This document shows, piece by piece, positions 30,250 to 56,284 of a stretch of DNA of 64,000 nucleotides (positions are counted from its first letter, which is position 1; each line of letters starts with the position of its first letter). The DNA comes from Acetobacterium woodii DSM 1030 (GTDB lineage Bacteria > Bacillota > Clostridia > Eubacteriales > Eubacteriaceae). The position numbers were made by a program, and so were the translations under genes. The notes below the pieces were generated by a model. The model was not told the DNA's origin. It was given only the letters and a program-made list of their open reading frames with translations, and did not search any database. The DNA lies in NCBI RefSeq assembly GCF_000247605.1, contig NC_016894.1, forward strand, positions 1,178,001 through 1,242,000. Direction: 5' to 3'.

Positions 30250-30420
30250 TTGGTAATGGTGAAATAAAAAAACATCGAACAATGGTTGCTTTGGGTGCAG
30301 TTTCCACAAACAATTTCGTAACGTGTAGGCGAACAGTTCATCGAACTGTCCGCCGTACCGTGTAGAAATTGTTTCGTGCGAAACTGGGACTAAAGTTCAC
30401 GGCATTTTCGCAATTACCTA
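30250..30420 (+). mobile_element. 171-bp palindromic MITE-like element, copy 1
   Basis: One of four copies of exactly 171 bp. The right end is TTTTCGCAATTACCTA; the left end is diverged (TTGGTAATGGTGAAAT). The middle is a long imperfect inverted repeat around GGCGAACAGTTC/GAACTGTCCGCC. Flanks are ATGTTGAATAAA (30238-30249) and ATGTTGAATAGA (30421-30432), an 11/12 direct repeat read as a target-site duplication. No coding capacity. Confidence 0.85.
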
Positions 30421-30445
30421 ATGTTGAATAGAAAGTAGGAGGGAT

Positions 30446-33400
30446 ATGAATCAGACGGATAAGGCAAGAGGATTTTTTGAGTCAGTAGATAAAAAAGAAG
30501 GTAAAGGGGCCGGTAAATCCGCTGAACTTTGCTTAAATGGGATCTTTCATCCTGATAGTGAGGCGGTTTTTCAAACATTGGAAGCCTATCAAAAGTGGTA
30601 TAGTCGTTTCGATCAATCTGAAATGCTGGTGGGGATTTTAACGCATCATGATAATTGGCGCAAGAAAAGAATTGAGGTCGAGGACGCCCTGATTCGGGAA
30701 CTGGAAAGACAGGGAGTCGGGGTGATTCCGGTTTTTAGCTATTCCACAACCGAAGAAGAAAAGGGAACTAAAAGTTTTAAAAACGTTATCCGCGATTATT
30801 TTTCCAGCGATGGAAAACTCAAAATTGACGGGCTCATTAATTTTCAAATGCAGGCAGCAACAGGAAACAGTCAATTCGGGGATTTATTTTCCCAAAGTGT
30901 GGCCGTTTTTAAAGAGATGAATATACCTATTTTTCGACCGGTCGTCAGTCGGCTTCAGAACCAGACTGAATGGGAAGCCAATATGGCAGGTCTTGCCGCC
31001 GAGATATCTTGGTCATTTACGACCAGTGAAATGATGGGAATGATTGAACCGATTATTATTGGAACCCGAAAAGAGGTGGATGATTTACTCAGGATAACCC
31101 CTATTCCCGAGCGGATTCAGCGGTTTGTGGCCAGAATAATCAGACGAATTGAATTAAAGAAGGTTAAAATAGCGGATAAAAAAATTGCCTTGATGCTCCA
31201 CTGTTCCCCTTGTGCAGGTGTTGAAGCAACGTTAGGAGCGGGAGTCGGACTGGACGTTTTTGAAAGTGTAGTGCGAATTTTAAAAACCATGAAAGAGCAG
31301 GGATATAAGGTTTTAAATATTCCGGATGATGGAGCGGCACTGAAAAAAATGATGCTGGATAACAAAGCTTATCAGGATTTTCGCTGGACAACGGTGGAAG
31401 ATATTGTAGCGGCGGGCGGAGATCTTTATCGGATGCCTATGGAAGGCAAGGGTGGCTACCATCAATTTTACCAGAAGCTGGAGCCGTTTCTGAGAGAACA
31501 GCTGGAAAAGAGCTGGGGAGTTCCCCCCGGAGAAGGGATGGTTTATCAGCAACAGCTTATTATAACCGGGCTTGATTTTGGAAACGTTCTGGTGATGATT
31601 CAGCCAAAAAGGGGCTGTTATGGGTCAAAATGTACCGGTGAAGTTTGTAAAATCCTCCACGATCCATCATGTCCGCCACCGCATCAGTATCTGGCAACCT
31701 ATCGCTATATTGATGAAATTTTTAAGGCCCAGGCCGTTGTCCATGTGGGTACGGGTGGGAGTCTTGAACATTTGCCGGGAAAAACCAATGCACTGTCGAG
31801 GTTTTGCTGGCCGGATGTGGTTATTGGTGATCTGCCTAATTTTTATTGCTATAATGCTGGAATAGGTGTCGAAGGAATGGGTGTTAAACGTCGAAATTAT
31901 GCGGTTGTGCTAGATTATCTGCCCAGCTGTCTCAATACCGATTACACCCGAATTGAATTGATCAATGAGTTGGGAAACTATTTAGAGGCGCTCGAGATGC
32001 GAAGTCCACAGGTAAAGGTGATCCAGGAGAGCATTCAGAACCAGCTCGATCAAAGGCCAGAATACCTAAAAATCATTCAGCAGGAAGCGGATTTTGTAGC
32101 GGGCATTCGAAAACTTAAGAATTACCTGACGCAATCGATTGTTCAATCCTTTGAACAGGAAAACCATATTTGGGGAGAAGTCCCTCAATTAAATCAGCAG
32201 GTATCCTATATCAAAGAATCTATCGATGGGACAAGTTTGTATGCTGCGCTGATTAAAAAGGACTGTCAAGATGAGTACCGCTATCATTCGGAAATGCTGT
32301 TACGGATTACCGACGTCCTCAATCATAGTGAAGAAGAAAAAGAATCTCACGCAAATTCAGATGTTGGCATGATACCATCTATTCAGGAAGCGGCTGTTTT
32401 AGATAATGAGATTTGTCAGAATAGAAGCAGTTTGTTAACGGTTGAAAATGAAACAAAGGCATTGATGAAAGCTCTAATGGGCGATTATATGGAACCGGGA
32501 CTTTCTGGTTCACCCCGGGATGGACTTAATCGGATTATGCCAACCGGCCGCAATTTTTATTTAATGGATACTCAAAAGGTACCAACCAGAGCAGCCTATG
32601 CTATTGGCGTGGAAATGGCAGAAAAATTAATTCGACAACATGAAAAAGACACCGGATTTTTTCCGGAAAAAGTTGCGATGAATATGATTTCTACCGATAT
32701 TTCGATGACCAAGGGGGAACAGCTTTCTCAAGTGCTGGCATTACTAGGAGTTAAACCGGTCTGGAGTGAATCGGGTATCGTGATGGATATTGAAACGATG
32801 CCATTGGAAGAATTGAGGCGCCCCAGAATCGATGTGATTATCCGAATTTCTGGGGTCTTAAGAGATTCATATCCGGATTTGATCGCCATGATGGATCGGG
32901 CGGTGCAAATGGTAGCAAGTTTACATGAGTCGGAAATGCAGAACTTTATTCGTCGCAACACCCAAAAAACCATTTCAGAATTACAATCAGAAACAGAAAT
33001 TTCTCAATCAGATGCGTTTAGACGAGCTTCAATGCGTATCTTTGGGGACAAGCCGGGAACCTATGGCTCCGGGGTGGATCTGGCGTTAAAAGCTAGTGCC
33101 TGGGAGTCGGAAGATGAGTTAGCCAAGATTTTTACATCTTTTTCAGGATATGCCTATGGGGACGGTTTAAGCGGAACGGTTTCTTATCAGGAATTTGTAG
33201 AAAACGTAAAACTGGCTGAGGTTGTGCTTGAAACCTCGGTGAGCAATCGTTATGATCTTTTGTCATCCGGCTATTCAGCATCGGTTATCGGTGGATTTAA
33301 CATGGTGAAAAATCAGTTTTCAGAAAAGGGACTTAAGCAATATCATGGCACATCCAACCATCAAGAAAAAATTGTTGTTTCCAGTTTGGAAGATGAAATT

Positions 33401-33871
33401 AATCGGATTATGGAGCAGACTGTTTTTAATCCGCTTTGGAATCGTTCGGTGATGAACAAAGGGTATCAGGGTGCTGCCGAGATTATGAGAAAGACGCAAA
33501 CCCTGTTTAGCTGGAAATGCACCACCAAAAATATTGATGATAAAGCGGTTGATGAAATGGTGCAAACTTATTTGGGTGATCTGGAAATGGTACGTTGGCT
33601 GAGTCAAGAAAATGGTTTTGCGATTGAAGAAATGGCACGGCGGTTTTTGGAACTACAGCAGCGAAAAAAATGGAATCCTAGTCCGGAAGCATTAAAAATT
33701 CTGAAAAATATATATGTCAAGATCGAAGGGGATATGGAAGAACTGATGGAAAAATCAAGTGGGGAGTATCAGGGTGGGGCTGTCGAAATCGTTCGTCATA
33801 TGGAGGTGGCAGATTGGTACAAAACCATTAAGGAAGTGGATGCCATATTTAATTCAGAGCGAAAAGGGTAG
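30446..33871 (+). CDS. divergent CobN-like protein, copy 3
   Basis: A 1141-residue CobN-family protein, about 110 residues shorter at the N-terminus than copies 1 and 2. LPTGRNFY becomes MPTGRNFY and the RRPRIDVIIRISGVLRDSYPD block is kept. Other key blocks changed: HVGTHGT is HVGTGGS (residues 433-439, His to Gly at 437), EWLPG is EHLPG, and SGAPTRG is SGSPRDG. A Cys-rich loop, C391-x4-C396-x4-C401-x7-C409, replaces the EDKAEEMYHSTDI segment just before it. It may be a non-catalytic or re-purposed paralogue. AGGAGG precedes the ATG, and cbiC follows. Confidence 0.85.
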   Translation: MNQTDKARGFFESVDKKEGKGAGKSAELCLNGIFHPDSEAVFQTLEAYQKWYSRFDQSEMLVGILTHHDNWRKKRIEVEDALIRELERQGVGVIPVFSYSTTEEEKGTKSFKNVIRDYFSSDGKLKIDGLINFQMQAATGNSQFGDLFSQSVAVFKEMNIPIFRPVVSRLQNQTEWEANMAGLAAEISWSFTTSEMMGMIEPIIIGTRKEVDDLLRITPIPERIQRFVARIIRRIELKKVKIADKKIALMLHCSPCAGVEATLGAGVGLDVFESVVRILKTMKEQGYKVLNIPDDGAALKKMMLDNKAYQDFRWTTVEDIVAAGGDLYRMPMEGKGGYHQFYQKLEPFLREQLEKSWGVPPGEGMVYQQQLIITGLDFGNVLVMIQPKRGCYGSKCTGEVCKILHDPSCPPPHQYLATYRYIDEIFKAQAVVHVGTGGSLEHLPGKTNALSRFCWPDVVIGDLPNFYCYNAGIGVEGMGVKRRNYAVVLDYLPSCLNTDYTRIELINELGNYLEALEMRSPQVKVIQESIQNQLDQRPEYLKIIQQEADFVAGIRKLKNYLTQSIVQSFEQENHIWGEVPQLNQQVSYIKESIDGTSLYAALIKKDCQDEYRYHSEMLLRITDVLNHSEEEKESHANSDVGMIPSIQEAAVLDNEICQNRSSLLTVENETKALMKALMGDYMEPGLSGSPRDGLNRIMPTGRNFYLMDTQKVPTRAAYAIGVEMAEKLIRQHEKDTGFFPEKVAMNMISTDISMTKGEQLSQVLALLGVKPVWSESGIVMDIETMPLEELRRPRIDVIIRISGVLRDSYPDLIAMMDRAVQMVASLHESEMQNFIRRNTQKTISELQSETEISQSDAFRRASMRIFGDKPGTYGSGVDLALKASAWESEDELAKIFTSFSGYAYGDGLSGTVSYQEFVENVKLAEVVLETSVSNRYDLLSSGYSASVIGGFNMVKNQFSEKGLKQYHGTSNHQEKIVVSSLEDEINRIMEQTVFNPLWNRSVMNKGYQGAAEIMRKTQTLFSWKCTTKNIDDKAVDEMVQTYLGDLEMVRWLSQENGFAIEEMARRFLELQQRKKWNPSPEALKILKNIYVKIEGDMEELMEKSSGEYQGGAVEIVRHMEVADWYKTIKEVDAIFNSERKG

Positions 33872-33944
33872 CGCATGGATATGGCTAAAAAGAAAATTTC
33901 TAGCAGCGATAGGACTAAAAATAAAAAATAGAAAGAGAGAAAGT

Positions 33945-34574
33945 ATGGAATTTATAAACAATCCCAGAGAAATTGAAGAGCGTAGTTTTGAGATTATCAC
34001 AGAAGAGTTAGGGGATAAAGTCTTTCCAGAAAACATCGCGCCGATTGTCAAACGAATCATTCACACCACAGCAGATTTTGAATATGCAGATTTGTTGGAA
34101 TTTATGAACAATGGTTATGAATGTGGAATGGAAGCGCTTAAAATGGGAAAAAAGATATATGCCGATACCCGGATGATTCAGTCTGGTGTCAATAAAAAAG
34201 CGCTGGCTGATCATGGCATTGAAATCGTTAATTATAGCCATGATCCCGAGGTAGCCGAAGAAGCCAAAAAGAGAGGGGTAACCCGATCCACTGTGGCCAT
34301 GGAAAAAGCTTTGAATGACGAAACTATCGGGATTTATGCCATTGGCAATGCGCCTACCGCTTTGTATACACTGATCAAAAAGGTTAAAGCAGGGGAATCA
34401 AAACCGGATTTGATTATTGGTGCACCGATTGGTTTTGTCGGAGCCGCTCAATCAAAAGAAGAATTGGATGGGATCGATTGTCCCAGTATTCGGATCAATG
34501 GAAGAAAAGGCGGCAGTCCGGTGGTAGCCGCCATTATTAATGCCATGTTATATCAACTGGGCAGGGAATGGTAA
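33945..34574 (+). CDS. cbiC: cobalt-precorrin-8 methylmutase
   Basis: A 209-residue CbiC/CobH protein that moves the methyl group from C-11 to C-12 to form cobyrinate. The catalytic His is H40 in RIIHTTADFEY, and other blocks are MIQSGVNK, AIGNAPTALY and GAPIGFVGAAQSKE. The start at 33945 follows GAAAGAGAGAAAG; the open frame extends upstream into the end of CobN3 but without family similarity. It anchors the right end of the island to corrin biosynthesis. Confidence 0.93.
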   Translation: MEFINNPREIEERSFEIITEELGDKVFPENIAPIVKRIIHTTADFEYADLLEFMNNGYECGMEALKMGKKIYADTRMIQSGVNKKALADHGIEIVNYSHDPEVAEEAKKRGVTRSTVAMEKALNDETIGIYAIGNAPTALYTLIKKVKAGESKPDLIIGAPIGFVGAAQSKEELDGIDCPSIRINGRKGGSPVVAAIINAMLYQLGREW

Positions 34575-34846
34575 AAACTTGGAAATGCCAGCAACTAAAG
34601 CCGGAAAGATATGGTTATTCCAGCCGGATTGGTTCCAATCAATTGATAAATTGGATTAGACGGTGTTTTTTACCGGTAATCAGCAGAACCCGCTTAATCG
34701 GACATCCATTGAGCGGGTCTCTTACTGTTTGAAAGAAGGCCGACTATTCGATTATCAGTCCGATAGACGCCAAGGATTCGGGAGCGCATTCAAATATTGA
34801 ACGAGAAGATGATGCTTGTTAAAAGCATTTATTCAGTGATACCAAC
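34575..34846. other. gap between cbiC and the mod operon
   Basis: No gene was found. A hairpin ACCCGCTTAAT (34688-34698) / ATTGAGCGGGT (34708-34718) with one G-T pair is the main structure. It is followed by CTCTTACTGTTT, too poor in T for a confident terminator, but it may end the cbiC transcript. The stretch before it (34590-34670) holds short CCGG-bounded repeats with no recognised riboswitch. Confidence 0.5.
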
Positions 34847-34876
34847 TTGACATCAGACTACCATTTATTATATAAT
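34847..34876 (+). promoter_or_regulatory. vegetative promoter of the molybdate-type operon
   Basis: A consensus TTGACA (34847-34852) and TATAAT (34871-34876) are separated by 18 bases, about 65 bases before the modA-like start. Both hexamers are perfect, so the basal promoter should be strong unless repressed. Confidence 0.85.
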
Positions 34877-34941
34877 TCGAAACAGATTAAAACATTACTA
34901 AACACAACGAAAATAAACTAAGTAAGGAAAGAGGAGAAAAG

Positions 34942-35736
34942 ATGAAAAAGACAAAAAAATGGTTGGTAGCATTGATTGGAATTGGGATCATCCTCAGTTT
35001 GGTGACGGGATGCGGCAGTAATACGGGAAAAACCGATGCCGCAAAGGTTCAAGAAAAAAGTCTCAATGGTCAAAAGCTGTTTATTTATTGTGGTGCTGGA
35101 ATGACAAAACCTTTTGGCGAAATAGTCGATGCCTTTAAAGAAGAAACAGGCTGCGAGATGGAAGTTGTTTATGCAAACGCCGCTCAGAGTCAAAATCAGA
35201 TCAAAACAACAGAAGAAGGCGATTTATTTATTGCCGGTTCGGCGGATGAGTTAAAACCGGTTCAGGATTATGTCACGGCAAGTAAAGATTTGGCTAAACA
35301 TATTCCGGTTTTAGCGGTGAAAAGTGGTAACCCGTTAGGTATTTTGGGATTAAATGATTTAACCAAAGATGGTGTGGAAGTTGTGTTAGGTGATGCCGAA
35401 GCGACACCAATTGGCAAAATTGCGAATAAAGCCTTAACTGACTTAGGAATTTTAGATAAAGTTGATGTAATTGCCAGAGGCGCAACAGCACCGGAAATAT
35501 TTAATGCCCTTGCGGTAGATGAATGTGATGCAATCATTGTCTGGAAAGAAAATGTAACCGGAAATAGTGCTGAGATTGTTAAAACAACCGACCTCGATGC
35601 CTATGTCAAAACGATTCCTGCAGCGAGCTTAAAAAATAGTGCCAATCCAGAAGCGTTAAATGCATTTTTAGCATTTTTAGATACCGATAAAGCAAAAACA
35701 ATTTGGGAAAATTACGGATACGAAGTGCTTAATTAA
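34942..35736 (+). CDS. modA: molybdate/tungstate-type ABC substrate-binding lipoprotein (ModA-like)
   Basis: A 264-residue lipoprotein: signal MKKTKKW, hydrophobic core and lipobox VTGC. The ModA-like fold is seen in LFIYCGAGMTKPFGEIVDAF, DLFIAGSADE, VVLGDAEATPIGKIANKAL and ECDAIIVWKEN. It binds an oxyanion, most likely molybdate or tungstate, outside the membrane. GAGGAG precedes the ATG. It heads an operon with permease, ATPase, HMA protein and ModD; the ModD gene supports Mo or W. Confidence 0.85.
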   Translation: MKKTKKWLVALIGIGIILSLVTGCGSNTGKTDAAKVQEKSLNGQKLFIYCGAGMTKPFGEIVDAFKEETGCEMEVVYANAAQSQNQIKTTEEGDLFIAGSADELKPVQDYVTASKDLAKHIPVLAVKSGNPLGILGLNDLTKDGVEVVLGDAEATPIGKIANKALTDLGILDKVDVIARGATAPEIFNALAVDECDAIIVWKENVTGNSAEIVKTTDLDAYVKTIPAASLKNSANPEALNAFLAFLDTDKAKTIWENYGYEVLN

Positions 35737-35744
35737 TTTTTATT

Positions 35745-37300: not shown

Positions 37301-37515
37301 AAGATGTTTTTTTAAAAGTTGACGGTATTATGTGTGGAAAATGTGTTAAGAAGGTAACTGAAACACTGATGGGTCACCAAGGAATCGAAACCGTTAGCAT
37401 CAGTGAAGATTTTAAAGAAGTAAGCGTAAAAATAGACGAAAATAAAATTGATGTTTTGCAAATTGGTAATATTATTGAAAAAATTGAGGATAAATCATTT
37501 AAAATAATAAATTAA
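37297..37515 (+). CDS. small heavy-metal-associated (HMA) domain protein
   Basis: A 72-residue single HMA ferredoxin-like fold, with the metal site MCGKC (C13 and C16), close to the GMxCxxC of copper chaperones and CopA domains. It is translationally coupled to the ModC-like gene and lies 18 bases before the ModD start. A copper or soft-metal chaperone inside a molybdate operon is unusual; Cu-Mo antagonism or a Cu-Mo cofactor would be possible reasons. Confidence 0.85.
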   Translation: MKDVFLKVDGIMCGKCVKKVTETLMGHQGIETVSISEDFKEVSVKIDENKIDVLQIGNIIEKIEDKSFKIIN

Positions 37516-37533
37516 AGGTTGAGGAGAAACAGT

Positions 37534-38370: not shown

Positions 38371-38385
38371 AAAAGTACAGTTAGA

Positions 38386-38551: not shown

Positions 38552-39154
38552 ATGAAAAAAGTTGGAAACGGGAATAAAATGACTAAAGCATATATAAAAC
38601 CACCTGCCAAAATACCGCTATTTTTTAAAATTGGATTATATATCGCCAAAAAAGAAACCGGTAAGGATTTATTGCCGGCTCGCCTTTTAACGTGGTATCC
38701 AAGGGCGGCAATGGGATCTGGGGTTTTAGAGATGATGACGGCAAAAGGCGAAAATCCTGCGGAAACAAGATTACTTAATCTGGTTCGATTGCAAGCGTCA
38801 CTTATTTGTGCGTGTTCATTTTGTATTGATATGAATGCTGAAGGCATTAGCAAAAATGGGATTACTCCAGAGGAATTGGCTGTACTGCAAGGTAAACGGC
38901 CAATCAAATCGGTTTTGAGCTTTAACTTGCGCGAATTATTAGCTTTGGAGTATGCGGTTATTTTATCAAGTACGCCGCCTCGATTCACAAAGCGATTTAT
39001 CAAAAATCTAACGGAAACATTCTCAGAAAAAGAAATTGTCATGTTGGCAAGCACGATTGCCAGTGTCAATTATTGGGCCAGACTGAACCAGGGACTGGGA
39101 ATACCGCCAGCCGGATTTAGCAAACAATGCCTAATATTCAGTCAACCAAGCTAA
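38552..39154 (+). CDS. carboxymuconolactone decarboxylase/AhpD-like protein
   Basis: A 200-residue helical protein of the CMD/AhpD superfamily. The redox motif C-x2-C is in CSFCIDMN, preceded by RLQASLICAC, and the second half holds FTKRFIKNLTETFSEKEIVMLASTIASVNYWAR. Members are peroxidase-linked or of unknown function. AAAGGAGTC precedes the ATG. It stands alone between the mod terminator and a 171-bp element. Confidence 0.82.
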   Translation: MKKVGNGNKMTKAYIKPPAKIPLFFKIGLYIAKKETGKDLLPARLLTWYPRAAMGSGVLEMMTAKGENPAETRLLNLVRLQASLICACSFCIDMNAEGISKNGITPEELAVLQGKRPIKSVLSFNLRELLALEYAVILSSTPPRFTKRFIKNLTETFSEKEIVMLASTIASVNYWARLNQGLGIPPAGFSKQCLIFSQPS

Positions 39155-39208
39155 TGGCAAACACCGCTATTTTTAAGAAACGAATTCCTTTCAATAATTA
39201 AGAAAAGA

Positions 39209-39379
39209 TAGATAATTGCGAAATTAAAAAACATCGAACAAGGGTTGCTTTGGGTGCAGTTTTCACAAACAATTTTGTAACGTGTAGGCGAACAGTTCAT
39301 CGAACTGTCCGCCGTACCGTGTAGAAATTGTTTCGTGCGAAACTGGGCTCAAAGCTCACGGCATTTTCACAATTGCCTA
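39209..39379 (+). mobile_element. 171-bp palindromic MITE-like element, copy 2
   Basis: Ends are TAGATAATTGCGAAA and TTTTCACAATTGCCTA. It is flanked by perfect 12-bp direct repeats ATTAAGAAAAGA at 39197-39208 and 39380-39391. It has the same orientation as copies 1 and 4. The right flank lies only about 6 bases before the -35 of the arsR promoter. Confidence 0.92.
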
Positions 39380-39397
39380 ATTAAGAAAAGAAAATGC

Positions 39398-39466: not shown

Positions 39467-39757
39467 ATGGAAATGAAACCAAAAGATTGTGATGAACAAG
39501 CTGAGATTTTAAAAATTCTCGGAAATCCGATTAGGCTTTGTATTGTCAGTGGCCTGATGAAAAAGGGTAGTTGCAATGTAACCTATATGGAAGAATGTTT
39601 GAATGTTTCGCAGTCATCGATTTCCCAACACTTATCTAAATTAAAAAGTGCTGGGATAGTTAAAGGCTATCGCACGGGAAGCGAAATTTATTATGAAGTG
39701 ATATCTAAAAGTGCTAAAAAAGTTATTAATGCAATATTTGAGGAGGAAGAACAGTGA
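39467..39757 (+). CDS. ArsR-family transcriptional regulator
   Basis: A 96-residue winged-helix repressor with LKILGNPIRLCIVSGLM, the recognition helix region VSQSSISQHLSKLKSAG and wing YRTGSEIYYEV. Cysteines are at residues 8, 25, 36 and 44. Relatives beside CoA-disulfide/persulfide reductases sense reactive sulfur through Cys pairs, so a sulfur sensor is likely, though metals are possible. Its stop overlaps the next start (GTGA). Confidence 0.88.
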   Translation: MEMKPKDCDEQAEILKILGNPIRLCIVSGLMKKGSCNVTYMEECLNVSQSSISQHLSKLKSAGIVKGYRTGSEIYYEVISKSAKKVINAIFEEEEQ

Positions 39758-42255
39758 AGAAAATTTTGATTGTTGGAGGCGTCGCCGGTGGTGCGACTGC
39801 TGCTGCACGGTTACGTCGTTTGAGTGAGGAAGACGAAATAATTTTGTTTGAACGGGATGAATATATCTCTTTTGCAAATTGCGGGTTGCCTTATTACATT
39901 GGAAATGTGATCAAGGATCGTCAAAAGTTATTGGTGCAAACGGTGGAAGGAATGTCAAAGCGTTTTAACTTAGATATCCGGAATTTTAGTGAAGTAATTG
40001 GGATTGATCCGGTTAATAAAACCGTCGAAGTAAAAAATCATCAAACCGGAGAAACTTATTCTGAAACCTATGATAAACTCATCTTATCACCTGGAGCCAA
40101 ACCGATTGCCCCGCCAATTACCGGATTAGCAGAGGCCAAAAATGTTTTAACAATGAGAAATATTCCCGATACCGATAAAATTAAAGCGGTGGTTGATAGC
40201 GGCACTGTCAGACGGGCAGTGGTTATCGGCGGGGGCTTTATCGGGGTTGAAATGGCTGAAAACCTTCAGGAATTAGGCGTTAATGTTACCTTAGTCGAAA
40301 AAATGAACCAGATTTTAAAACCTCTGGATTTTGAAATGGCGCAACTCGTTCATCAGGAAATTAACGCTAATTGTGTCAACCTTATTTTAGAAGATGGGGT
40401 CGATCATTTCCAAAAACAGGGATCAGAAGTGGTTCTTGAAAGTGGGAAAGTTTTAGAAGCGGATCTCGTCATTTTGGCAATCGGTGTTATTCCAGAAAAC
40501 GGACTAGCCAAGAAAGCCAATCTAAAATGTGGACCACGGGGTCATATTGTGACAACAAAAGATTATCAAGTCTTAAATGCTGAAAATGATACCGTTTATC
40601 CAGATATTTTTGCGATTGGCGACGTTGTTGAAGTGATTGATTTTGTTACCAAAGAACAAACCGCGGTTCCGTTGGCATGGCCAGCGAATCGTCAGGGACG
40701 TTTGGTTGCTGATTATATTAATGGTAAAACCATCAAGAATTTGGGAATCCAGGGAACGGCAGTAGCAAAGGTTTTTAATAAAACGATTGCGTCAACCGGT
40801 AATAATGCCAGCCAACTGGATATGAAAAAAATCAAATATCAAGTTGTCGTTGCACATCGGGCAAATCATGCCGGATATTATCCGAACTCAACCAATATTG
40901 CCTTAAAACTGCTTTATGATCCCCAAACATTAAAAATTTTTGGGGCCCAGGCTGTTGGCCAAGACGGCACCGAAAAACGGATTGATGTGATTGCGTCGGC
41001 AATGAAAATGGGGGCAACGGTTTTAGATTTGCAAGATTTTGAACTTTCTTATGCACCACCATTTTCATCAGCAAAAGATCCGGTGAATATCTTGGGTTAT
41101 ATCGCTGAAAATATTGAAGATGGCATTTACAAAACCGTTCAATGGAATGAAATTGACGAAATTGTTGCCAAAGGAGGATTTTTACTCGATGTTCGGACGC
41201 CGGTCGAGGCTAGCGCTGGAGCGATTAAAGGCGCGGTGAATATCGAATTGGATACATTAAGAGAACGGATTGGTGAAATAACCGTTTCGAAAGACGATCC
41301 TATCTATGTAACCTGTCAGGTTGGACAACGGGCCTACCTTGCTATTTGTATCCTGAAAGGCCACGGATTTAAAAATATCTATAATTTAGCCGGTGGGTAT
41401 AGTACTTATAAAACAGCGCATTATAAGTTAGCGGAACCTGATTTTACAGTCGGTGAATGTGTGCCTAAAAAAGATGATTCGGTTGATGAAGATATTGACC
41501 AGGGCGGTGTCGGCAAAGCCGTAATCAAAAAAAAAGTTGATGTAACAGGGCTCCAATGTCCAGGGCCGTTAATGGCGACCTATGATGCCATCCAAAATGT
41601 TGAATCCGGTGATCTGGTTCAAATTACGGCAACAGATTTTGGTTTTGTCAGTGATATTAAAAACTGGTGTGAAACCAATGGCCATACCTTAATCTCTCAG
41701 GAAACGGAAGGAAAAAGTTATATCAGTGTGATTAAAAAAGGTGATTCAGGCGAAAATTGTAGCCTGATGCCAGCTGTTTCGACACAGAAAAATGCTACGC
41801 TGGTCGTTTTTAGCGGGGAATTAGATAAGGTTTTGGCATCCATGATTATCGCTCAGGGGGCCGCTGCCCAGGGGAAAAATGTGACCTTGTTTTTCACCTT
41901 CTGGGGATTGAACGCCCTCAGAAAAAGAGATGGAAAAGGACATAATAAAACCTTTATTGAAAAGATGTTTGGTGCAATGATGCCAAAAGGTGCAGCACGA
42001 TTACCACTTTCAATGATGAACATGTTGGGCGCTGGCCCGGCAATGATTAAAGGGATCATGAAAAAGAAACACGTTGATGATCTTGATACGATGATTAAAA
42101 AAGCTCAAAAAGCTGGGGTTCGCTTTATTGCCTGTACCATGAGCATGGATCTGATGGGAATTAAAGAAGAAGAACTCATTGATGGAATTGAATATGCTGG
42201 GGTAGGAACTTATATTGCCAGCAATGAAAATGCGGGAACAACTTTATTTGTGTAA
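39754..42255 (+). CDS. CoA-disulfide/polysulfide reductase fused to rhodanese, TusA and DsrE-like domains
   Basis: An 833-residue protein, GTG start. Domains in order: a pyridine nucleotide-disulfide oxidoreductase (FAD motif IVGGVAGGATAAARL at 5-19, FANCGLPYYIG redox Cys, GGGFIGVEMAE for NAD(P)H) to about 445; a rhodanese at about 460-550 (CQVGQRAY active loop); a TusA/SirA domain with CPGPL near 605; and a DsrE/DsrE2-like domain from about 680 with FFTFWGLNALRK. It probably reduces CoA or protein persulfides and relays sulfane sulfur. It is coupled to arsR. Confidence 0.9.
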   Translation: MKKILIVGGVAGGATAAARLRRLSEEDEIILFERDEYISFANCGLPYYIGNVIKDRQKLLVQTVEGMSKRFNLDIRNFSEVIGIDPVNKTVEVKNHQTGETYSETYDKLILSPGAKPIAPPITGLAEAKNVLTMRNIPDTDKIKAVVDSGTVRRAVVIGGGFIGVEMAENLQELGVNVTLVEKMNQILKPLDFEMAQLVHQEINANCVNLILEDGVDHFQKQGSEVVLESGKVLEADLVILAIGVIPENGLAKKANLKCGPRGHIVTTKDYQVLNAENDTVYPDIFAIGDVVEVIDFVTKEQTAVPLAWPANRQGRLVADYINGKTIKNLGIQGTAVAKVFNKTIASTGNNASQLDMKKIKYQVVVAHRANHAGYYPNSTNIALKLLYDPQTLKIFGAQAVGQDGTEKRIDVIASAMKMGATVLDLQDFELSYAPPFSSAKDPVNILGYIAENIEDGIYKTVQWNEIDEIVAKGGFLLDVRTPVEASAGAIKGAVNIELDTLRERIGEITVSKDDPIYVTCQVGQRAYLAICILKGHGFKNIYNLAGGYSTYKTAHYKLAEPDFTVGECVPKKDDSVDEDIDQGGVGKAVIKKKVDVTGLQCPGPLMATYDAIQNVESGDLVQITATDFGFVSDIKNWCETNGHTLISQETEGKSYISVIKKGDSGENCSLMPAVSTQKNATLVVFSGELDKVLASMIIAQGAAAQGKNVTLFFTFWGLNALRKRDGKGHNKTFIEKMFGAMMPKGAARLPLSMMNMLGAGPAMIKGIMKKKHVDDLDTMIKKAQKAGVRFIACTMSMDLMGIKEEELIDGIEYAGVGTYIASNENAGTTLFV

Positions 42256-42328
42256 TTTATTAAGCAAAGTCATTGACGTTTAAGCGACGTATAAAAAAAA
42301 CGACACTGATTTTACCAAAAGAATTAAA

Positions 42329-42366
42329 CAGGAGCGATCAGATTTCATCAGGCGCTCCTGTTTTTT
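42329..42366 (+). terminator. intrinsic terminator after the CoA-disulfide reductase fusion
   Basis: CAGGAGCG (42329-42336) pairs with CGCTCCTG (42353-42360), followed by six T. It ends the arsR operon, just before a 171-bp element. Confidence 0.9.
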
Positions 42367-42397
42367 GCGGAAAAGGAATCTTTGCTGAAAATTTTTA

Positions 42398-42568
42398 TAG
42401 GCAATTGCGAAAATGCCATGAACTTTGGGTGCAGTTTCTCACGAAACAATTTCTACACTGTACAGCGGACAGTTCGATGAACTGTTCGCCTACACGTTAC
42501 AAAATTGTTTGTGGAAACTGCACCCAAAGCAACCGTTGTTCGATATTTTTCAATTTTACAATTACCTA
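42398..42568 (-). mobile_element. 171-bp palindromic MITE-like element, copy 3 (inverted)
   Basis: The same 171-bp element in opposite orientation: TAGGCAATTGCGAAAAT at the left, CAATTACCTA at the right, and the TTTGGGTGCAG / CTGCACCCAAAGCAACC arms reversed. Perfect 11-bp direct repeats GAAAATTTTTA flank it (42387-42397 and 42569-42579). It sits between a terminator and a promoter, so it disrupts no gene. Confidence 0.92.
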
Positions 42569-42619
42569 GAAAATTTTTAAGTTGAAAGGACCTTATTTTA
42601 GGCAGTGTTTATTTAGTTA

Positions 42620-46908: not shown

Positions 46909-47077
46909 AAAATAATTGCGAACGTATCGCGGACGTTGGAGCTTAGTAGCTTAAATCAGGTTTAACACAATATGGAATGCAGAGTTTAAACTGTTTGTCA
47001 AAAGGTGATAAAATTGCTTGTAAGGTACTAAATAAACAATAGTTAGCGGTTTAAATTAGATGTTTCGCAATTAACTA
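46909..47077 (+). mobile_element. possible 169-bp diverged relative of the 171-bp element
   Basis: The ends AATAATTGCGAA and TTTCGCAATTAACTA match those of the 171-bp element and the length is nearly the same, but the interior is unrelated by eye and shows little palindromic structure. Flanks AAAGTAAAATGA (46896-46907) and AAAGCAAAATAG (47078-47089) match at 9 of the first 10 positions, like a decayed target duplication. Confidence 0.5.
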
Positions 47078-48431: not shown

Positions 48432-48432
48432 A

Positions 48433-48588: not shown

Positions 48589-48609
48589 GAAAATTAAGGA
48601 GAAAACAAA

Positions 48610-49134: not shown

Positions 49135-49203
49135 AATGGATAACATTATATTGAAGTTAACGAGGACAAAGAAAAAACGAATATAAGATGAAGAGGTAAT
49201 CAA

Positions 49204-50016: not shown

Positions 50017-50107
50017 AAAAGTGTGCTTGAAAAACATTGATAATGGTGAAATACGAAAAAATAAAACAAAAAGAGGTTGTCAATTTAACAAAAAATAGGA
50101 GCATGAA

Positions 50108-51196
50108 ATGAAAAAAATTTTCGCTGTATTATTGAGTTTAATAATGGTTGTAACTTTTGGAGCCTGCAGTAATGCTAATGCAGGAAGTAATGAAAGTAAA
50201 GCGACCACAAAAGTTGTGACGGATAGTCTTGGCCGGCAAGTGGAAGTACCAACCGAAATAAAAAGTGTCGGTTCGCTTGGCGTGATGCGTTTGTTGACCT
50301 ACATGGATGCAGTTGATCTGGTGACTGGGGCGACAAATATGGATAATGTTCAGGAATTAACGAGAGCTTATACACTCGTTAATCCGAATTATGCCAATTT
50401 GGCAGTAATTGGTCAAGGTGGCGCCGGTGGCATTGTTCCTTTCGAAGAGGAGATTATCAAATTGGCACCGGATGTGATCTTTGTGGTAGCGGATTATACC
50501 CAGGCTGATGAATTGTCGGCGAAAACGGGGATTCCCGTGGTGGCAGTCAAAAATCCCGGACTCTTTGATGGCACGATGAGTGCTTCAATTGATATTATCG
50601 GAGCAGTATTAGGGAAAGAAGACCGGGCCAAAGAAGTCAATGGTTTTATGGATGCGGCGCAAAAAGATTTGAACGATCGAACGAAAGATATTGCCGAAGC
50701 AAGTAAACCGACTGTTTATAATGGGGGACTAAATTTTAAAGGCAAACATGGATTTGATGGTACCAGTGCAAAATACGGTCCGTTTTTGGCAATCAATGCC
50801 AATAATGTGGTTGATCAAACCGGACAAAACGGTGCCTTTACAATTGATTTAGAACAGGTATTGGCCTGGAATCCGGATATTATCTTCCTGAATCCGGAAA
50901 ATATGGATCTGGTTAATGAACAATACACTCAAAATCCGGACTTTTTCAACGCTCTTGATGCGGTAAAAAATAATAAGGTATACACCCAATTGGCTTATAA
51001 TAATAATTATACCAACATCGAAATTGCCTTGGCTGATGCTTATTATGCCGGGACAGTTATTTATCCAGAACAGTTTAAAGATATTGATGCTGGTAAAAAA
51101 GCCGATGAAATTTTTAAATTCTTATTGGGTGAAGAATTGTATTCCAAATATGTCGCAGCAGGGCAAGGGTTTGGACCGCTGACAATCGGGCAATAA
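50108..51196 (+). CDS. iron-complex/metallophore ABC substrate-binding lipoprotein
   Basis: A 362-residue lipoprotein with lipobox FGAC (Cys about 20). The FecB/BtuF-type lobes show VTDSLGRQVEVPTEIKSV at the start, LAPDVIFVVADYTQADEL, and LEQVLAWNPDIIFLNPENM. Length and motifs fit siderophore, haem or corrinoid binding proteins. It differs from the binding protein at 14.6 kb. Its ligand is unknown; the FmdE neighbour hints at a Mo/W or other metal complex. Confidence 0.88.
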   Translation: MKKIFAVLLSLIMVVTFGACSNANAGSNESKATTKVVTDSLGRQVEVPTEIKSVGSLGVMRLLTYMDAVDLVTGATNMDNVQELTRAYTLVNPNYANLAVIGQGGAGGIVPFEEEIIKLAPDVIFVVADYTQADELSAKTGIPVVAVKNPGLFDGTMSASIDIIGAVLGKEDRAKEVNGFMDAAQKDLNDRTKDIAEASKPTVYNGGLNFKGKHGFDGTSAKYGPFLAINANNVVDQTGQNGAFTIDLEQVLAWNPDIIFLNPENMDLVNEQYTQNPDFFNALDAVKNNKVYTQLAYNNNYTNIEIALADAYYAGTVIYPEQFKDIDAGKKADEIFKFLLGEELYSKYVAAGQGFGPLTIGQ

Positions 51197-51200
51197 AAAA

Positions 51201-52283
51201 ATGGACAACATAAAAAAGACAGCGTGCGGAGGCAATTACGATCAATATGTCCACCGCAAGATTCTGATCATCGTTGGGTTGGCAATAATGACATTAGTCA
51301 CTGCTCTTTTTGCGATCTCGGCCGGCTCTGCTGATATCCCCGTCAGTGAAGTGCTGAAGGCACTTTTGGGTATGAGTACCGCCAAAAATGTGATGGTTAC
51401 GGTTAATATTCGCTTACCACGAATTTTGATGGCGATCGTCTCCGGGGTAGGTTTAGCCGCTTCCGGTTGTGTCATGCAAAGCATTCTAAAAAACCCTCTG
51501 GCGTCATCATCAACACTGGGAATTTCGCAGGGGGCCTCATTTGGAGCGGCTATTGCGATTACTTATCTGGGCGGCGGAACGGTTATGGGGAATACTGCCG
51601 ATGCGGTGACGGTAAGTAACCCTTATTTAACAAGTATGTGTGCATTTGCGGCTTCGCTGTTTGTAACGTTTGTCATCTTAGGGTTGTCAAAGGCGCGAAA
51701 AGCATCACCGGAAACAATGATTCTGGCTGGGGTCGCACTCAGTTCGCTTTTCGCTGGCGCGACAGCCTTACTTCAGTATTTTTCGTCGGATGTTCAAATG
51801 GCGGCAATTGTGTTTTGGACATTTGGCGATTTGGGCCGAGCCAGTATGAAAAATATTAATGTAGCCGCCATCATTACGGGAGCGGCGCTTATTTATTTCA
51901 TGTTTAATCGCTGGAATTATAATGCCCTGGAATGCGGTGAACATACAGCAACGGGTTTAGGTGTGAATGTTTCCCGGGTACGGTTAATCGGGATGAGTGT
52001 GGCCTCATTATCGGCAGCAACGATTGTTTCCTTTGTGGGGATTATTAATTTTATTGGATTGATCGCACCACATATCATGCGTCGCTTTGTGGGCAATGAT
52101 TATCGATTTTTATTGCCGGCGTCAGCTTTAATGGGAGCATTGATGTTGCTGATCAGCGATACCTTTGCACGATTGATTATTTCACCGGTTATCTTGCCAA
52201 TCGGGGCCATCACCTCTTTCCTTGGGGCTCCGTTATTCTTGTATCTGATATTTAAAGGAGTTGGTCATAATGCTGAAAATTGA
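51201..52283 (+). CDS. FecCD-type ABC permease
   Basis: A 360-residue permease of the BtuC/FecCD family with about ten helices. Family blocks are NIRLPRILMAIVSGVGLAASG, NPLASSSTLGISQGASFGA and VGIINFIGLIAPHIMRR. It follows the binding protein by 4 bases, and its end overlaps the ATPase by 14 bases. Confidence 0.9.
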   Translation: MDNIKKTACGGNYDQYVHRKILIIVGLAIMTLVTALFAISAGSADIPVSEVLKALLGMSTAKNVMVTVNIRLPRILMAIVSGVGLAASGCVMQSILKNPLASSSTLGISQGASFGAAIAITYLGGGTVMGNTADAVTVSNPYLTSMCAFAASLFVTFVILGLSKARKASPETMILAGVALSSLFAGATALLQYFSSDVQMAAIVFWTFGDLGRASMKNINVAAIITGAALIYFMFNRWNYNALECGEHTATGLGVNVSRVRLIGMSVASLSAATIVSFVGIINFIGLIAPHIMRRFVGNDYRFLLPASALMGALMLLISDTFARLIISPVILPIGAITSFLGAPLFLYLIFKGVGHNAEN

Positions 52284-53025
52284 TGCGTTGGAATTTGGTT
52301 ATCGGTCGAATCGAAAGATCTTAGATGATATTAAATTTGATGTTTCCAATGGCGAATGTGTGGCGATTTTAGGGAACAATGGGGCTGGAAAAAGTACCAT
52401 GTTGAAATGCTTAAACAAAATTATATCACCGCAAAAAGGCAGTGTCGTTGTGAATGAGGTGGATATTCTAAAACTGAATCGTTTAGACATTGCCAAAAAT
52501 ACCGCTTATGTCGCGCAGAAAAGTGAAGGCAGCCGAATTACCGTTTATGATGCGATTTTGTTAGGTAGAAAACCTTATATTAAGTTAGCCCCCAAAAAAG
52601 AAGATTATGATATTGTTGAAAAAATCATCGAAAGTTTATCACTGGAGAAATTTTCGCTACGGTATATTGATGAACTAAGCGGTGGAGAATTACAAAAAGT
52701 AATGATTGCCCGAGCTTTAGCGCAGGAACCAAAGGTGTTGCTTTTGGATGAACCAACGAGCTGCCTCGATCTGAAAAACCAATTGGAAGTGTTAAAACTG
52801 ATTCAGGATATTACCAAGGAAAAAGAAATTGCCGTTGTGATTGTGATTCATGACTTGAATTTGGCCTTAAGGTATTGTGATCGGTTTTTATTTCTTAAGG
52901 ACAATGAAATCTTTTGTTACGGCGGGATGGATGTGATGACATCGGAAAACATTGGAGCTGTTTATCAAGTGCCCGTTACAGTACAATCTTATCAAAATCA
53001 AAAGGTTGTTATCCCGTTAACTTGA
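52270..53025 (+). CDS. FecE-type ABC ATPase
   Basis: A 251-residue ABC ATPase. Walker A is GNNGAGKST, the signature is LSGGELQKVMIARAL and Walker B is LLLDEPTSCLDL, with VIVIHDLNLALRYCD. The ATG at 52270 has AAAGGAG upstream; the TTG at 52261 is less likely. No C-terminal extension is present, in contrast to the ATPase at 12.2 kb. Confidence 0.9.
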   Translation: MLKIDALEFGYRSNRKILDDIKFDVSNGECVAILGNNGAGKSTMLKCLNKIISPQKGSVVVNEVDILKLNRLDIAKNTAYVAQKSEGSRITVYDAILLGRKPYIKLAPKKEDYDIVEKIIESLSLEKFSLRYIDELSGGELQKVMIARALAQEPKVLLLDEPTSCLDLKNQLEVLKLIQDITKEKEIAVVIVIHDLNLALRYCDRFLFLKDNEIFCYGGMDVMTSENIGAVYQVPVTVQSYQNQKVVIPLT

Positions 53026-53041
53026 AGGATATAAATAAAAA

Positions 53042-53075
53042 AAACGCTGGTTTGCTTTGTTGCACCAGCGTTTTT
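53042..53075 (+). terminator. intrinsic terminator after the FecBCD-type operon
   Basis: AAACGCTGGT (53042-53051) pairs with ACCAGCGTTT (53064-53073), followed by further T. Confidence 0.9.
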
Positions 53076-53158
53076 CTGATTGTCATAATCAAGAGAATAA
53101 GATTGTTAAGCGGCCCGAAGTCTGATAAAATAAGAAAAAAACTTTAGGGGGTGGGGCG

Positions 53159-54502
53159 ATGTCGGCTTTTAAGAATACTGCTCCGATTATCTGGTTACTT
53201 ATTTCAATCGCCGTATTTATTGGCGGGATGATCATGTTATTGGATATTAAACTGGCCTGGGACATAATCATCACGGGAATATCGATTATGTTGATTATCA
53301 TTGGAGTTATGTATTTAGTAGCTATTTTTTTGCCGAAAAACGAAAGTAAGTTTAAGGTCTTGGGAATCGGTTTACTTTGTATCATCGGAGGAATTTTCAC
53401 CTACGTATATCCGCAATTTTTAAAAGGGCCATTCAGTTTTGCAATCGGAATGTTAGGCGTGATTATTGGCTTATTTATCTTTTTGAGTAGTTTGAAATTA
53501 AAACATGACGGTGCGCCGTGGGTGAGTACACTGTTGATTGCCCTTATTTATATCGGATTAGGAATCGATATGGCTTTTTTTGCCACAAAAGGTCGGATTT
53601 TCGGGATTGTTTTTGGCGTTTACCTGATTTTTTTTGCGTTGAATATTTTTGGCGATGCTTTGGTCAGCTTGATGAAACACAATCATGGGGCCCAAAAAGC
53701 CAAAAAGCATATCCGGGTAACCTTACCCTTGGTTGTGGCCGCTTTTTTGCCGATGCGGATGTTAAAAAAAGTAAATCAATTGGTTGCCGAAGAACCGGAT
53801 GCATTATTGCTGCTTGCGGATCATTCGGTGGAACAAACGACTGATATGGAAATTTTTATCCATACCAGCGCAGGTTTAATCCCCGGGATGGGACATGTTG
53901 ATGTTTTGTTGGGGGAACAGGTATACAGTTATGGGAATTATGATAATTCGACCTGGAAACTGGGGGGCTTTTTAGCTGATGGCGTTTTGGTTGAAATGCC
54001 CAAAGATGCGCATATTCAACAAGCTTTAAAGGTCGAAAAGAAAATATTGATGGGGTATGGTTTATCACTGACACCTGAACAAAAAAAGGGAGTTCATGCT
54101 AAACTCGATCAGTTATTGGCTGAAGTTGTTGTTTGGGAGCCATTAGCAGAACAGGCGGATAAAGGTAAAATTGCCGGTAACCCAACGGATTATGTTGACG
54201 CTTCCAGTCAACTGTATAATGATGCCGGAGCGCGTTTTTACAAGTTCCAACAAGGCAATGAATTTAAGACCTATTATGCCTTGGGTACCAACTGCGTTAA
54301 ATTAGTGGATACCATTGTCGGTAAAACCGGGATTGATTTGATTAAGATAAATGGGATTATTACACCCGGTGCCTATTTAGATTATTTAGATCGGCTTTAT
54401 GACCGAGGCGATTCAATTGTGGTATCGCGAACGTTGTATCAGGATATTGAAAATAACCTGGAAACCGATCAATTGCCAACCCCGGCATCGAAGCCAATTT
54501 GA
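53159..54502 (+). CDS. membrane protein, DUF308/HdeD-like N-terminus with soluble C-terminal domain
   Basis: A 447-residue protein. About six hydrophobic helices lie within residues 8-170, arranged like DUF308 (HdeD) proteins. The soluble remainder starts near RVTLPLVVAAFLPMR and contains FIHTSAGLIPGMGHVDVLLG, VYSYGNYDNSTW and ALGTNCVKLVDTIVGKTG. The conserved-looking His and Cys in that part recall papain-like or NlpC/DUF4105-type hydrolases, but this is not certain. Function unknown. GGGGGTGGGG precedes the ATG. Confidence 0.7.
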   Translation: MSAFKNTAPIIWLLISIAVFIGGMIMLLDIKLAWDIIITGISIMLIIIGVMYLVAIFLPKNESKFKVLGIGLLCIIGGIFTYVYPQFLKGPFSFAIGMLGVIIGLFIFLSSLKLKHDGAPWVSTLLIALIYIGLGIDMAFFATKGRIFGIVFGVYLIFFALNIFGDALVSLMKHNHGAQKAKKHIRVTLPLVVAAFLPMRMLKKVNQLVAEEPDALLLLADHSVEQTTDMEIFIHTSAGLIPGMGHVDVLLGEQVYSYGNYDNSTWKLGGFLADGVLVEMPKDAHIQQALKVEKKILMGYGLSLTPEQKKGVHAKLDQLLAEVVVWEPLAEQADKGKIAGNPTDYVDASSQLYNDAGARFYKFQQGNEFKTYYALGTNCVKLVDTIVGKTGIDLIKINGIITPGAYLDYLDRLYDRGDSIVVSRTLYQDIENNLETDQLPTPASKPI

Positions 54503-54545
54503 GAATTGTGGAAAATACATGGAGTAATCGTGGCAGGATAAAAAG

Positions 54546-55202
54546 CTATAAAAGCTTGAAATGATTATTTTTGTATTCGATCACCGCTTCTTTTTTAAGC
54601 TTTGAAAGAACCCGGGATAAAGCACTGCGATCAACACATAAAAAATCAGCTAATTCATTGCGGCTAAAGGGAATTTCGAATTCGAGATTGCCTTTTTTTT
54701 CGGCCTGAAGGGAAAGATACGAAAGGATTTTATCTTCAATGGTCCGTAATGACAGTAATTGATTTTTACTGCTGAGGAGAATGTTTTTTCGGGCCAGAAT
54801 TTTTAACAGGTTTTCGATCAGGTGATTATGAAAAATACAACTATTTGGGCAAGTGGTGATAATTCGATCGATGCCCAGAAATAGAATTGTGGCATTGGTT
54901 TTAGCAATAACCGTTACAGGGCTTTCAGGAATGCCGGCACTGGCAAAAGATTCGCCAAAAATATGGCTGGGATTTAATTCGGTTAAAATCGAACGGTTGC
55001 CATAAAAGTCTTCATGAATAATTTGGACTTCACCGGACAAGATGACGCCAACCGCAGTCACTGGTTGACCGGTAAGTAAAATGATCTCACCGCGAGCATA
55101 TTTTTTTTGATCACTGCCCAGGCATTCCAGCATGGCAGACAGATTTTCATTGATGCCTTCAAATAAAGTAACTTTTTTTAAAATTTCTAAATTATTATTC
55201 AT
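54546..55202 (-). CDS. Crp/Fnr-family transcriptional regulator
   Basis: A 218-residue regulator. The N-terminal cyclic-nucleotide-binding-like barrel (EIILLTGQPVTAVGVILSGEVQII) is followed by a C-terminal helix-turn-helix, FSRNELADFLCVDRSALSRVLSKL. The start at 55202 follows AAAGGA; the open frame reaches 55274 without a ribosome site. Cys pairs at TTCPNSC could hold a redox or metal signal, unlike a cAMP-binding Crp. It is divergent from a ferredoxin-like gene and has a palindrome in its own leader (55217-55230). Confidence 0.9.
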   Translation of the reverse strand: MNNNLEILKKVTLFEGINENLSAMLECLGSDQKKYARGEIILLTGQPVTAVGVILSGEVQIIHEDFYGNRSILTELNPSHIFGESFASAGIPESPVTVIAKTNATILFLGIDRIITTCPNSCIFHNHLIENLLKILARKNILLSSKNQLLSLRTIEDKILSYLSLQAEKKGNLEFEIPFSRNELADFLCVDRSALSRVLSKLKKEAVIEYKNNHFKLL

Positions 55203-55216
55203 TATTTTCCTTTGAT

Positions 55217-55230
55217 GTTGCATATGCAAC
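55217..55230. promoter_or_regulatory. perfect palindrome upstream of the Crp/Fnr gene
   Basis: GTTGCATATGCAAC is a perfect 14-bp palindrome 15 bases before the regulator start. It is a plausible autoregulatory site. On the other side of the gap, TGATATC occurs twice (55279-55285 and 55292-55298), 13 bases apart, before the divergent gene. Confidence 0.55.
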
Positions 55231-55312
55231 GGTAGTTTTGGGTAGATTATATTATGATTGAGACAAGAAATCAAGACATGATATCAAAATATGATATCGC
55301 AAGGAGGAAAAA

Positions 55313-56104
55313 ATGATCCGAAAAATAATTACCATAGATGAACAAAAATGCAACGGTTGTGGGCTTTGTGCCGAAGCTTGCCACGAAGGGGCCATTGGCA
55401 TGGTGAATGGGGTAGCGACGTTATTGCGCGATGATTATTGTGACGGACTGGGAGATTGTCTGCCAAGCTGTCCAACCGGAGCGATTACTTTTGTCGAGCG
55501 GGAAGCCGCCGCTTATGACGAGGCCGCGGTCCTCGCTAATGCCCAAAAGAAAGCCGCCAGCCAAGCGGATCACGGCAAAAAATCGGGCGGATGTCCCGGC
55601 AGTCAGGCAAAAACTATTGCTCGTGAAACCGTAACTGAGCAAGAGCCTTTGGCCTGTGGATGCCCCGGTTCATCATCCCAAACGATTGTCAGAGAAAATC
55701 CCAAAGGCGCAGAAGAACAGCCGGTAGCAGCACCCGAATCACAGCTAAGACAATGGCCGGTGCAAATTAAATTGGTGCCGGTAACGGCGCCTTACTTTAA
55801 CGGAGCACATCTGCTAATTGCTGCTGATTGCACAGCTTATGCCTTTGCTGACTTCCATGATCGTTTTATTAAAAATAAAATTACGCTGATTGGCTGTCCT
55901 AAACTGGACGCGATTAATTATGCCGAGAAGCTTACCGAAATCTTGAAACTAAATGAGATCAAAAGTATTACCGTGGTACGAATGGAAGTCCCCTGCTGCG
56001 GTGGAATTACTCAGGCCGTAACGACCGCACTTAAAGATTCCGGAAAAATGATTCCGTGGCAAGTCGTGACCATCAGTACCGATGGAAAAGTAATTGAAGA
56101 TTAA
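55313..56104 (+). CDS. 4Fe-4S ferredoxin-like protein with C-terminal CCGG domain
   Basis: A 263-residue protein. The N-terminus carries a ferredoxin motif CNGCGLCAEAC and a second cluster site CDGLGDCLPSC. The linker has two copies of a GCPGS-x3-TI-x-RE motif, with Cys (near residues 95 and 122). The C-terminal part has LIAADCTAYAF, LIGCPKLDA and VPCCGGITQAV, a Cys-rich arrangement seen in proteins beside Crp/Fnr regulators and hybrid-cluster enzymes. Its partner here is unknown. AAGGAGG precedes the ATG. Confidence 0.85.
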   Translation: MIRKIITIDEQKCNGCGLCAEACHEGAIGMVNGVATLLRDDYCDGLGDCLPSCPTGAITFVEREAAAYDEAAVLANAQKKAASQADHGKKSGGCPGSQAKTIARETVTEQEPLACGCPGSSSQTIVRENPKGAEEQPVAAPESQLRQWPVQIKLVPVTAPYFNGAHLLIAADCTAYAFADFHDRFIKNKITLIGCPKLDAINYAEKLTEILKLNEIKSITVVRMEVPCCGGITQAVTTALKDSGKMIPWQVVTISTDGKVIED

Positions 56105-56113
56105 TTGACTAAG

Positions 56114-56284
56114 TAGGCAATTGCGAAATTAAAAAATATCGAACAACGGTTGCTTTGGGTGCAGTTTCCACAAACGATTTCGTAACGTGTAGGCGAACAG
56201 TTCATCGAACTGTCCGCCGTACAGTGTAGAAATTGTTTGGTGCGAAACGGAGCCCAAAGCTCATGGCATTTTCGCAATTACCTA
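56114..56284 (+). mobile_element. 171-bp palindromic MITE-like element, copy 4
   Basis: Ends are TAGGCAATTGCGAAA and TTTTCGCAATTACCTA, same orientation as copies 1 and 2. Flanks TTAATTGACTAAG (56101-56113) and TTAATCGATAAAG (56285-56297) match at 10 of 13, an older or imperfect target duplication. The left flank overlaps the stop codon of the ferredoxin-like gene. Confidence 0.88.

Follow-up and report, generated by a model that had tools for sequence, protein, structure and literature searches.

A 171-bp palindromic element of Acetobacterium woodii and an insertion sequence with a shared end lie at a fixed distance from Shine-Dalgarno-like motifs

The stretch of DNA analysed here (the window) comprises 64,000 nucleotides, positions 1178001-1242000 of the single-contig genome of Acetobacterium woodii DSM 1030 (4,044,777 bp), and contains four dispersed copies of a palindromic element that the initial annotation regarded as a miniature inverted-repeat transposable element (MITE). 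Direct reading confirmed that each copy measures exactly 171 bp. Copy 1 (30250..30420, + strand) has an ABC-2 permease gene (29514-30248) on its left and a CobN-like gene (30446-33871) on its right. It is flanked by the target-site duplications ATGTTGAATAAA (30238..30249) and ATGTTGAATAGA (30421..30432), given like all duplications below on the + strand, and five bases beyond the duplication stands GGAGG (30438..30442, +), the Shine-Dalgarno (SD) sequence of the open reading frame (ORF) starting at 30446. Copy 2 (39209..39379, +) has a CMD-like gene (38552-39154) to its left and, to its right, a promoter-like site preceding an ArsR-type regulator gene (39467); it lies within duplications of ATTAAGAAAAGA (39197..39208 and 39380..39391); AAAGG (39187..39191, - strand) is again five bases beyond the duplication, with no start codon of a 50-aa ORF behind it. 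Copy 3 (42398..42568, -) is inverted and lies downstream of a pyridine-nucleotide-disulphide-oxidoreductase gene (39754-42255); it is flanked by GAAAATTTTTA on both sides (42387..42397 and 42569..42579), and AAAGG (42585..42589, +) follows five bases beyond, with no 50-aa ORF behind it. Copy 4 (56114..56284, +) separates a 4Fe-4S protein gene (55313-56104) from a cupin gene (56315) and has the decayed duplications TTAATTGACTAAG (56101..56113) and TTAATCGATAAAG (56285..56297); AGAGG (56302..56306, +), the SD sequence of the ORF starting at 56315, is 17 nt from the element end. All four copies fit the same positional rule, copies 1 and 4 preceding the SD sequences of ORFs and copies 2 and 3 adjoining AAAGG.

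The common ends ascribed to the copies are not present in every one, the left end of copy 1 being TTGGTAATGGTGAAA, and the remainder of that description stood. The flanking direct repeats were as reported: 12 bp with one mismatch in copy 1, a perfect 12 bp in copy 2, a perfect 11 bp in copy 3, and a decayed 13-mer with three mismatches in copy 4, which falls below the score for a clear duplication. None of the copies contains an ORF of >=80 aa, in line with the absence of coding capacity noted earlier, and a 98-aa ORF at 42273-42569 enters copy 3 from outside. The strong internal palindrome was borne out by RNA folding of copy 2 (-64.4 kcal/mol, z -6.8, with 0/200 shuffles as good), and the 171-bp sequence gives a strong hairpin from either strand. 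A profile search of the window recovered the four copies strongly and all other matches weakly (best E 0.0024). That best weak match, at 46913-47076, has a high composition bias and may be a decayed element or chance.

Searching the whole genome and related genomes with the 171-bp sequence disclosed a large family, which the description of four copies had under-stated. A terminal 15-mer pattern had 89 forward and 91 reverse matches in the A. woodii genome (reversed-pattern control, 0), and the 171-base query gave 186 first-look candidates, of which 40 were scored, yielding 43 matches. Stretches read around the listed places gave 92 profile hits, a number that includes multiple pieces from single copies; at least 77 copies span both ends, a lower bound because the listing covered 100 of the pattern's 180 matches. 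Exactly 171 bp was the length of 67 of the 77. The family further includes reduced versions (about 103 to 159 bp) and mini forms (about 52-69 bp), and six A. woodii loci (L083, L091, L106, L110, L082, L081) hold miniature derivatives of about 52-133 bp that keep the ends and a shorter stem. With the 171-base query, matches were obtained in 17 of 19 Acetobacterium genomes, in none of 48 further genomes from the order, and in none of the plasmids or phages searched; an exact 17-base core is present in nine viral-contig stretches.

A direct repeat by score accompanies 63 of the 77 genomic copies, mostly of 10-12 bp, so the flanking repeats are not confined to the window; the other 14, window copy 4 included, have none by this score. 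Beyond the duplication, on one side, come five variable bases and then RRAGG (R, purine), the SD core. In a profile of 62 sites, a purine occupies +6 in 61 and +7 in all 62, A stands at +8 in 61, and G takes up +9 in 59 sites and +10 in 45; the opposite side is featureless. RRAG begins at +6 in 59 of 63 sites and at other offsets in 0-5, except for the overlapping +3 register (19). The result is the same without a duplication filter: RRAG lies 14-18 nt beyond an end in 74/77 copies, and in shifted control intervals in 7 (24-28 nt), 11 (34-38 nt) and 8 (44-48 nt). The claim that the element always sits in intergenic DNA can accordingly be refined to a placement fixed relative to an SD-like motif, a feature the initial annotation had not seen. 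The relatives behave similarly. From ten other Acetobacterium genomes we collected 75 elements (3 hits skipped), of which the 34 with a clear duplication were used for the motif count and the 41 without one left out; the motif was at +6 on exactly one side in 29/34 and on neither in 5/34.

Empty orthologous sites were found in relatives at two family sites outside the window, metA and lysA-dapL. Among 15 loci compared at metA, a family member is present in A. woodii and two relatives (G003, G007), and the other 12 are empty, the same two genes adjoining directly or across a short spacer. At lysA-dapL (17 loci), family members are present in A. woodii, G017, G001, G018 and G010; 6 loci are empty, 3 are not comparable, and by eye G002, G011 and G016 hold a different palindromic element. 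This other element (L376, L381, L385, upstream of dapL) has a similar GGGCGAACAGGTC-GACCTGTCCG centre and lies at the same ribosome-binding site, so that the same SD sequence is held by different elements in different species. By eye, the family member in G018 and G010 carries a nested insert; in L377, L380 and probably L018 the 171-bp element harbours another palindromic sequence (AACAAGAAGAAAT...) as an insert, which may explain the 171-bp matches that end near position 121. At the copy 2 site, four aligned relatives retain the promoter region on the downstream side but lack the element, a one-sided comparison because synteny breaks upstream, and at copies 1 and 3 the relatives' flanks are, by eye, too different to compare.

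The initial annotation noted that no parent transposon lies in the window. An end pattern that leaves out MITE ends revealed non-MITE ends in 14 of the 19 genomes, and in G013 these belong to a 1750-bp insertion sequence (IS) that encodes a 485-aa DDE transposase and has the MITE-type TAGGYAATTGCGAAA end; the MITE and one IS end are identical over 15/15 terminal bases. A full IS of ~1.75 kb with the same end therefore exists. G013 has 10 intact copies, and intact frames were also found in G003, G008, G014 and G016. At all 8 insertion sites read in G013, the transposase-upstream end is followed by the duplication, five bases and GGAGG. One locus of this genome (L121, 2195-7466) holds three tandem IS copies with the same 11-bp duplication between them and one SD site. 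Together with the absence of an 80-aa ORF, the terminal inverted repeats, the duplications and the empty sites, the end-sharing IS upholds the assignment of the 171-bp element as a MITE. A 536-aa transposase, found by a PF01609 search in two copies in A. woodii, was considered as the parent and rejected, since its ends do not match; by eye, its flanks have no SD sequence at the fixed distance. These two loci (L039, L040) are near-identical DDE_Tnp_1 IS copies with unrelated ends.

Genomes of the Genome Taxonomy Database (GTDB) contributed 74 IS loci, from Lachnospiraceae, Blautia, Dethiosulfatibacter, Halanaerobium and others, a few being again from Acetobacterium. We examined 61 of them, 13 partial matches or fragments being dropped, and 53 had a recognisable transposase-upstream end and enough flank. 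RRRGG lies 14-19 nt beyond this end in 49/53 loci and beyond the other end in 3/51, which indicates that the IS stands nearly always in one orientation to the SD sequence, with its transposase gene pointing away from the gene downstream. The remaining four of the 53 loci are L179 (no motif), L206 (TAAGG), L221 (TGAGG) and L211 (flank masked as N). These sequence comparisons strongly support a transposon clade that inserts at a fixed distance upstream of an SD core. P0001 had no phage match, and no transposase is listed at the plasmid matches H1 and H2, whose gene table is incomplete and from which we conclude nothing. Plasmids of Carboxydocella, Alicyclobacillus and Thermoanaerobacterium (L413, L414, L415) encode distant transposases (28-29% identity) that adjoin an SD-like sequence at the upstream end; with a different spacing and, in two, unclear duplications, they are only a lead.

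We consider it highly probable that the 171-bp elements form a MITE family and that the DDE transposase of the ~1.75-kb IS mobilises them in trans, the insertion site being read as RRAGG in the DNA. The transposase of the IS sharing the terminal 15 bp would mobilise the MITE, and cleavage staggered by roughly one helical turn would produce duplications mostly of 10-12 bp. The transposition complex, presumably through contacts made by the transposase itself, would read RRAGG (as GGAGG or AAAGG) on one side, five bases outside the duplicated segment. Because RRAGG is the SD core, most insertions would then land upstream of a ribosome-binding site, at a distance of ~16 bp, leaving both the SD sequence and the reading frame intact. 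The element would so obtain a harmless and abundant landing site, and avoidance of harm could be why such specificity evolved.

Several observations weigh against this reading. Mobilisation of the MITE by the IS transposase is deduced from shared ends and a shared target; by eye the MITE and IS interiors show no likeness beyond the terminal repeats, and A. woodii has no intact transposase, its two IS copies being one frameshifted and one 5'-truncated. The motif rule has exceptions, with no motif at L011 and L031 in the relatives, TGAGG at the exact offset (no RRRG at +6) in L013, SD sequences one and three bases off (again no RRRG at +6) in L339 and L316, and, among the IS loci, no motif at L179 despite a perfect 12-bp duplication. 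The orientation of the MITE to the motif is random (31:30 in A. woodii, 17:12 in the relatives), whereas that of the IS is near-fixed, and where a single IS-left-type end is present (nine MITEs), it points towards the motif in 2/9; the simple model leaves this difference unexplained. Furthermore, sites at true SD sequences are over-represented. Of the 59 sites with RRRG at +6, 48 are followed by a start codon whose ORF spans 50 aa or runs off the end of the stretch read, compared to 25 of 62 RRAGG motifs in the intergenic DNA of the window (Fisher p 6e-6), a background that is rough, as it consists of one 64-kb window with simple ORF calling. This excess suggests that a preference beyond RRAGG, or selection, also acts. 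Moreover, two of the 11 motif sites without such an ORF (445515 and 753875) have a well-placed ATG and a shorter frame and may be genes.

The over-representation of gene-backed sites could reflect unselective insertion followed by purifying selection that keeps copies just upstream of SD sequences, as intragenic copies would be lost. Selection on translation, however, does not demand one exact spacing, and RRAG is rarely found away from +6. Eleven of the motif sites have no 50-aa ORF behind them, and the motif likewise marks two IS insertions within genes: in G013, IS copies L122 and L123 lie inside coding frames, at GGAGG, and joining their flanks with one duplication restores uninterrupted frames of 625 and 291 codons. 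We therefore hold selection alone to be very improbable. The same enrichment of true SD sequences would be expected if targeting operated via translation or transcription, with the ribosome, an mRNA R-loop or the anti-SD end of the 16S rRNA as the guide, and an RRAGG-type motif is the complement of the 16S rRNA. Against such guidance, GGAGG and AAAGG represent different SD registers and yet share the same offset, and both the gene-less sites and the two coding-frame sites were used; a DDE transposase can generate staggered duplications without RNA. Guidance of this kind thus appears improbable to us. The intragenic copies, the gene-less motif sites and the offset shared by GGAGG and AAAGG point to recognition of DNA sequence, and the DNA sequence rather than translation is probably what is read.

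Alternatively, rather than being a mobile parasite, the repeat could have been domesticated as a regulatory RNA of 5' leaders, its hairpin controlling the downstream genes. It would fit the gene starts found behind most motif sites and the compensatory changes in the hairpin: across 30 copies, pairing holds in 97.9% of stem cells, and double changes occur in 12/36 pairs, with 0/500 shuffles as high. Covariation in a palindrome can also arise from DNA-level arm correction, however, and the two orientations occur with similar frequency, empty orthologous sites are frequent and many duplications are perfect. At the gathering threshold, Rfam gave no match to the copies, the only matches in the window being two cobalamin riboswitches. 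Counts of G.U against A.C cells were mixed. In the 75 copies from relatives they were 164 to 53 in the inner hairpin (23 against 14 pairs) and 57 to 74 in the terminal repeats, with rare types at 9 to 10; in A. woodii, counted with three divergent copies (65-70 mismatches to the consensus) left out, the rare types lean the opposite way, 6 to 15. Strand-specific RNA selection is hence not claimed. The hairpin structure is conserved, judging from the alignments, though DNA-level processes may also keep the palindrome, and a regulatory-RNA origin of the pattern is in our estimation improbable. A broader proposal, in which a clostridial transposon clade uses the SD sequence as a universal safe harbour and, in addition, the Acetobacterium MITE hairpin is under RNA selection as a shared post-transcriptional control in dozens of 5' leaders, seems unlikely.

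The initial annotation related the long duplications to IS4/IS231-type transposases, and this could be retained in part. The best NCBIfam profile for the transposase of the ~1.75-kb IS is IS1182 (NF033551), with 60.8 bits far below the curated cut-off of 270; DUF772 (PF05598) scores above its cut-off and DDE_Tnp_1 below (17.9 against 23 bits). IS1182 family members combine DUF772 and DDE_Tnp_1, and a single ORF with DUF772 is what the IS shares with them. A search with the transposase family profile gave no convincing PDB sequence match (best E 0.31). Likeness to the IS4 family is seen in the single ORF, duplications of about one helical turn (here mostly 10-13 bp), a transposase fold closest to Tn5 transposase, and a Y(2)R(3)E(6)K signature that is invariant in 36 transposase sequences (Y420, R423, E427, K434). 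According to PMC2266710, IS4 family transposases have the spacing D(60-110)D(100-150)E and the element ends start with CA or CT. By comparison, taking D149 and D290 as the catalytic aspartates (our own reading), D149 and D290 are about 140 apart, outside 60-110, D290 and E427 are about 136 apart, and the ends of the present family begin with TAGG. PMC2266710 also mentions a spectacular target-arm specificity in some IS4-subgroup elements, whose arms may contain a motif similar to RRAGG. IS1272, of the IS1182 family, replaces inverted-repeat targets with no duplication, according to PMC5678879, in contrast to the mostly 10-12 bp duplications and the RRAGG target seen here. On sequence criteria, the transposase is best described as distantly IS1182-like with an IS4-type YREK signature, not as plain IS4/IS231. 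Like MITEAba12, whose parent is ISAba12, the 171-bp element is short and has parent-like terminal repeats, duplications and an occurrence in many genomes of one genus; according to PMC6382973, MITEAba12 has 9-bp duplications with no sequence trend identified in them, unlike the strict motif outside the duplication found here.

An ordinary-looking MITE leads here to an unusual targeting rule, whose mechanism and purpose we infer. Most insertion sequences discriminate little between targets, and the safe-site strategies known so far often rely on a single site or a few sites per genome. Tn7, for example, inserts at attTn7 at a fixed distance from a conserved sequence and spares the host gene; by contrast, the IS relies on one short motif that recurs throughout the genome, and it carries just the transposase gene, lacking a separate gene for targeting. 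Among the literature matches listed, in a search that ISfinder lay outside of, there was no published SD-targeting transposon and no description of the 171-bp repeat. An element reading the SD core would gain a near-harmless target beside very many genes, and this abundance would explain its spread across the acetogen genus and Clostridia. Target choice by a simple one-gene IS becomes directly testable, and a tool for placing cargo in 5' leaders is conceivable. Many Acetobacterium leaders carry a recent 171-nt hairpin that is not to be taken for native regulation.

Elsewhere in the window, three large homologous ORFs (15763-19521, 24812-28579 and 30446-33871, the last matching CobN/Mg-chelatase) stand downstream of the two cobalamin riboswitches, located at 6595-6788 and 10736-10933.

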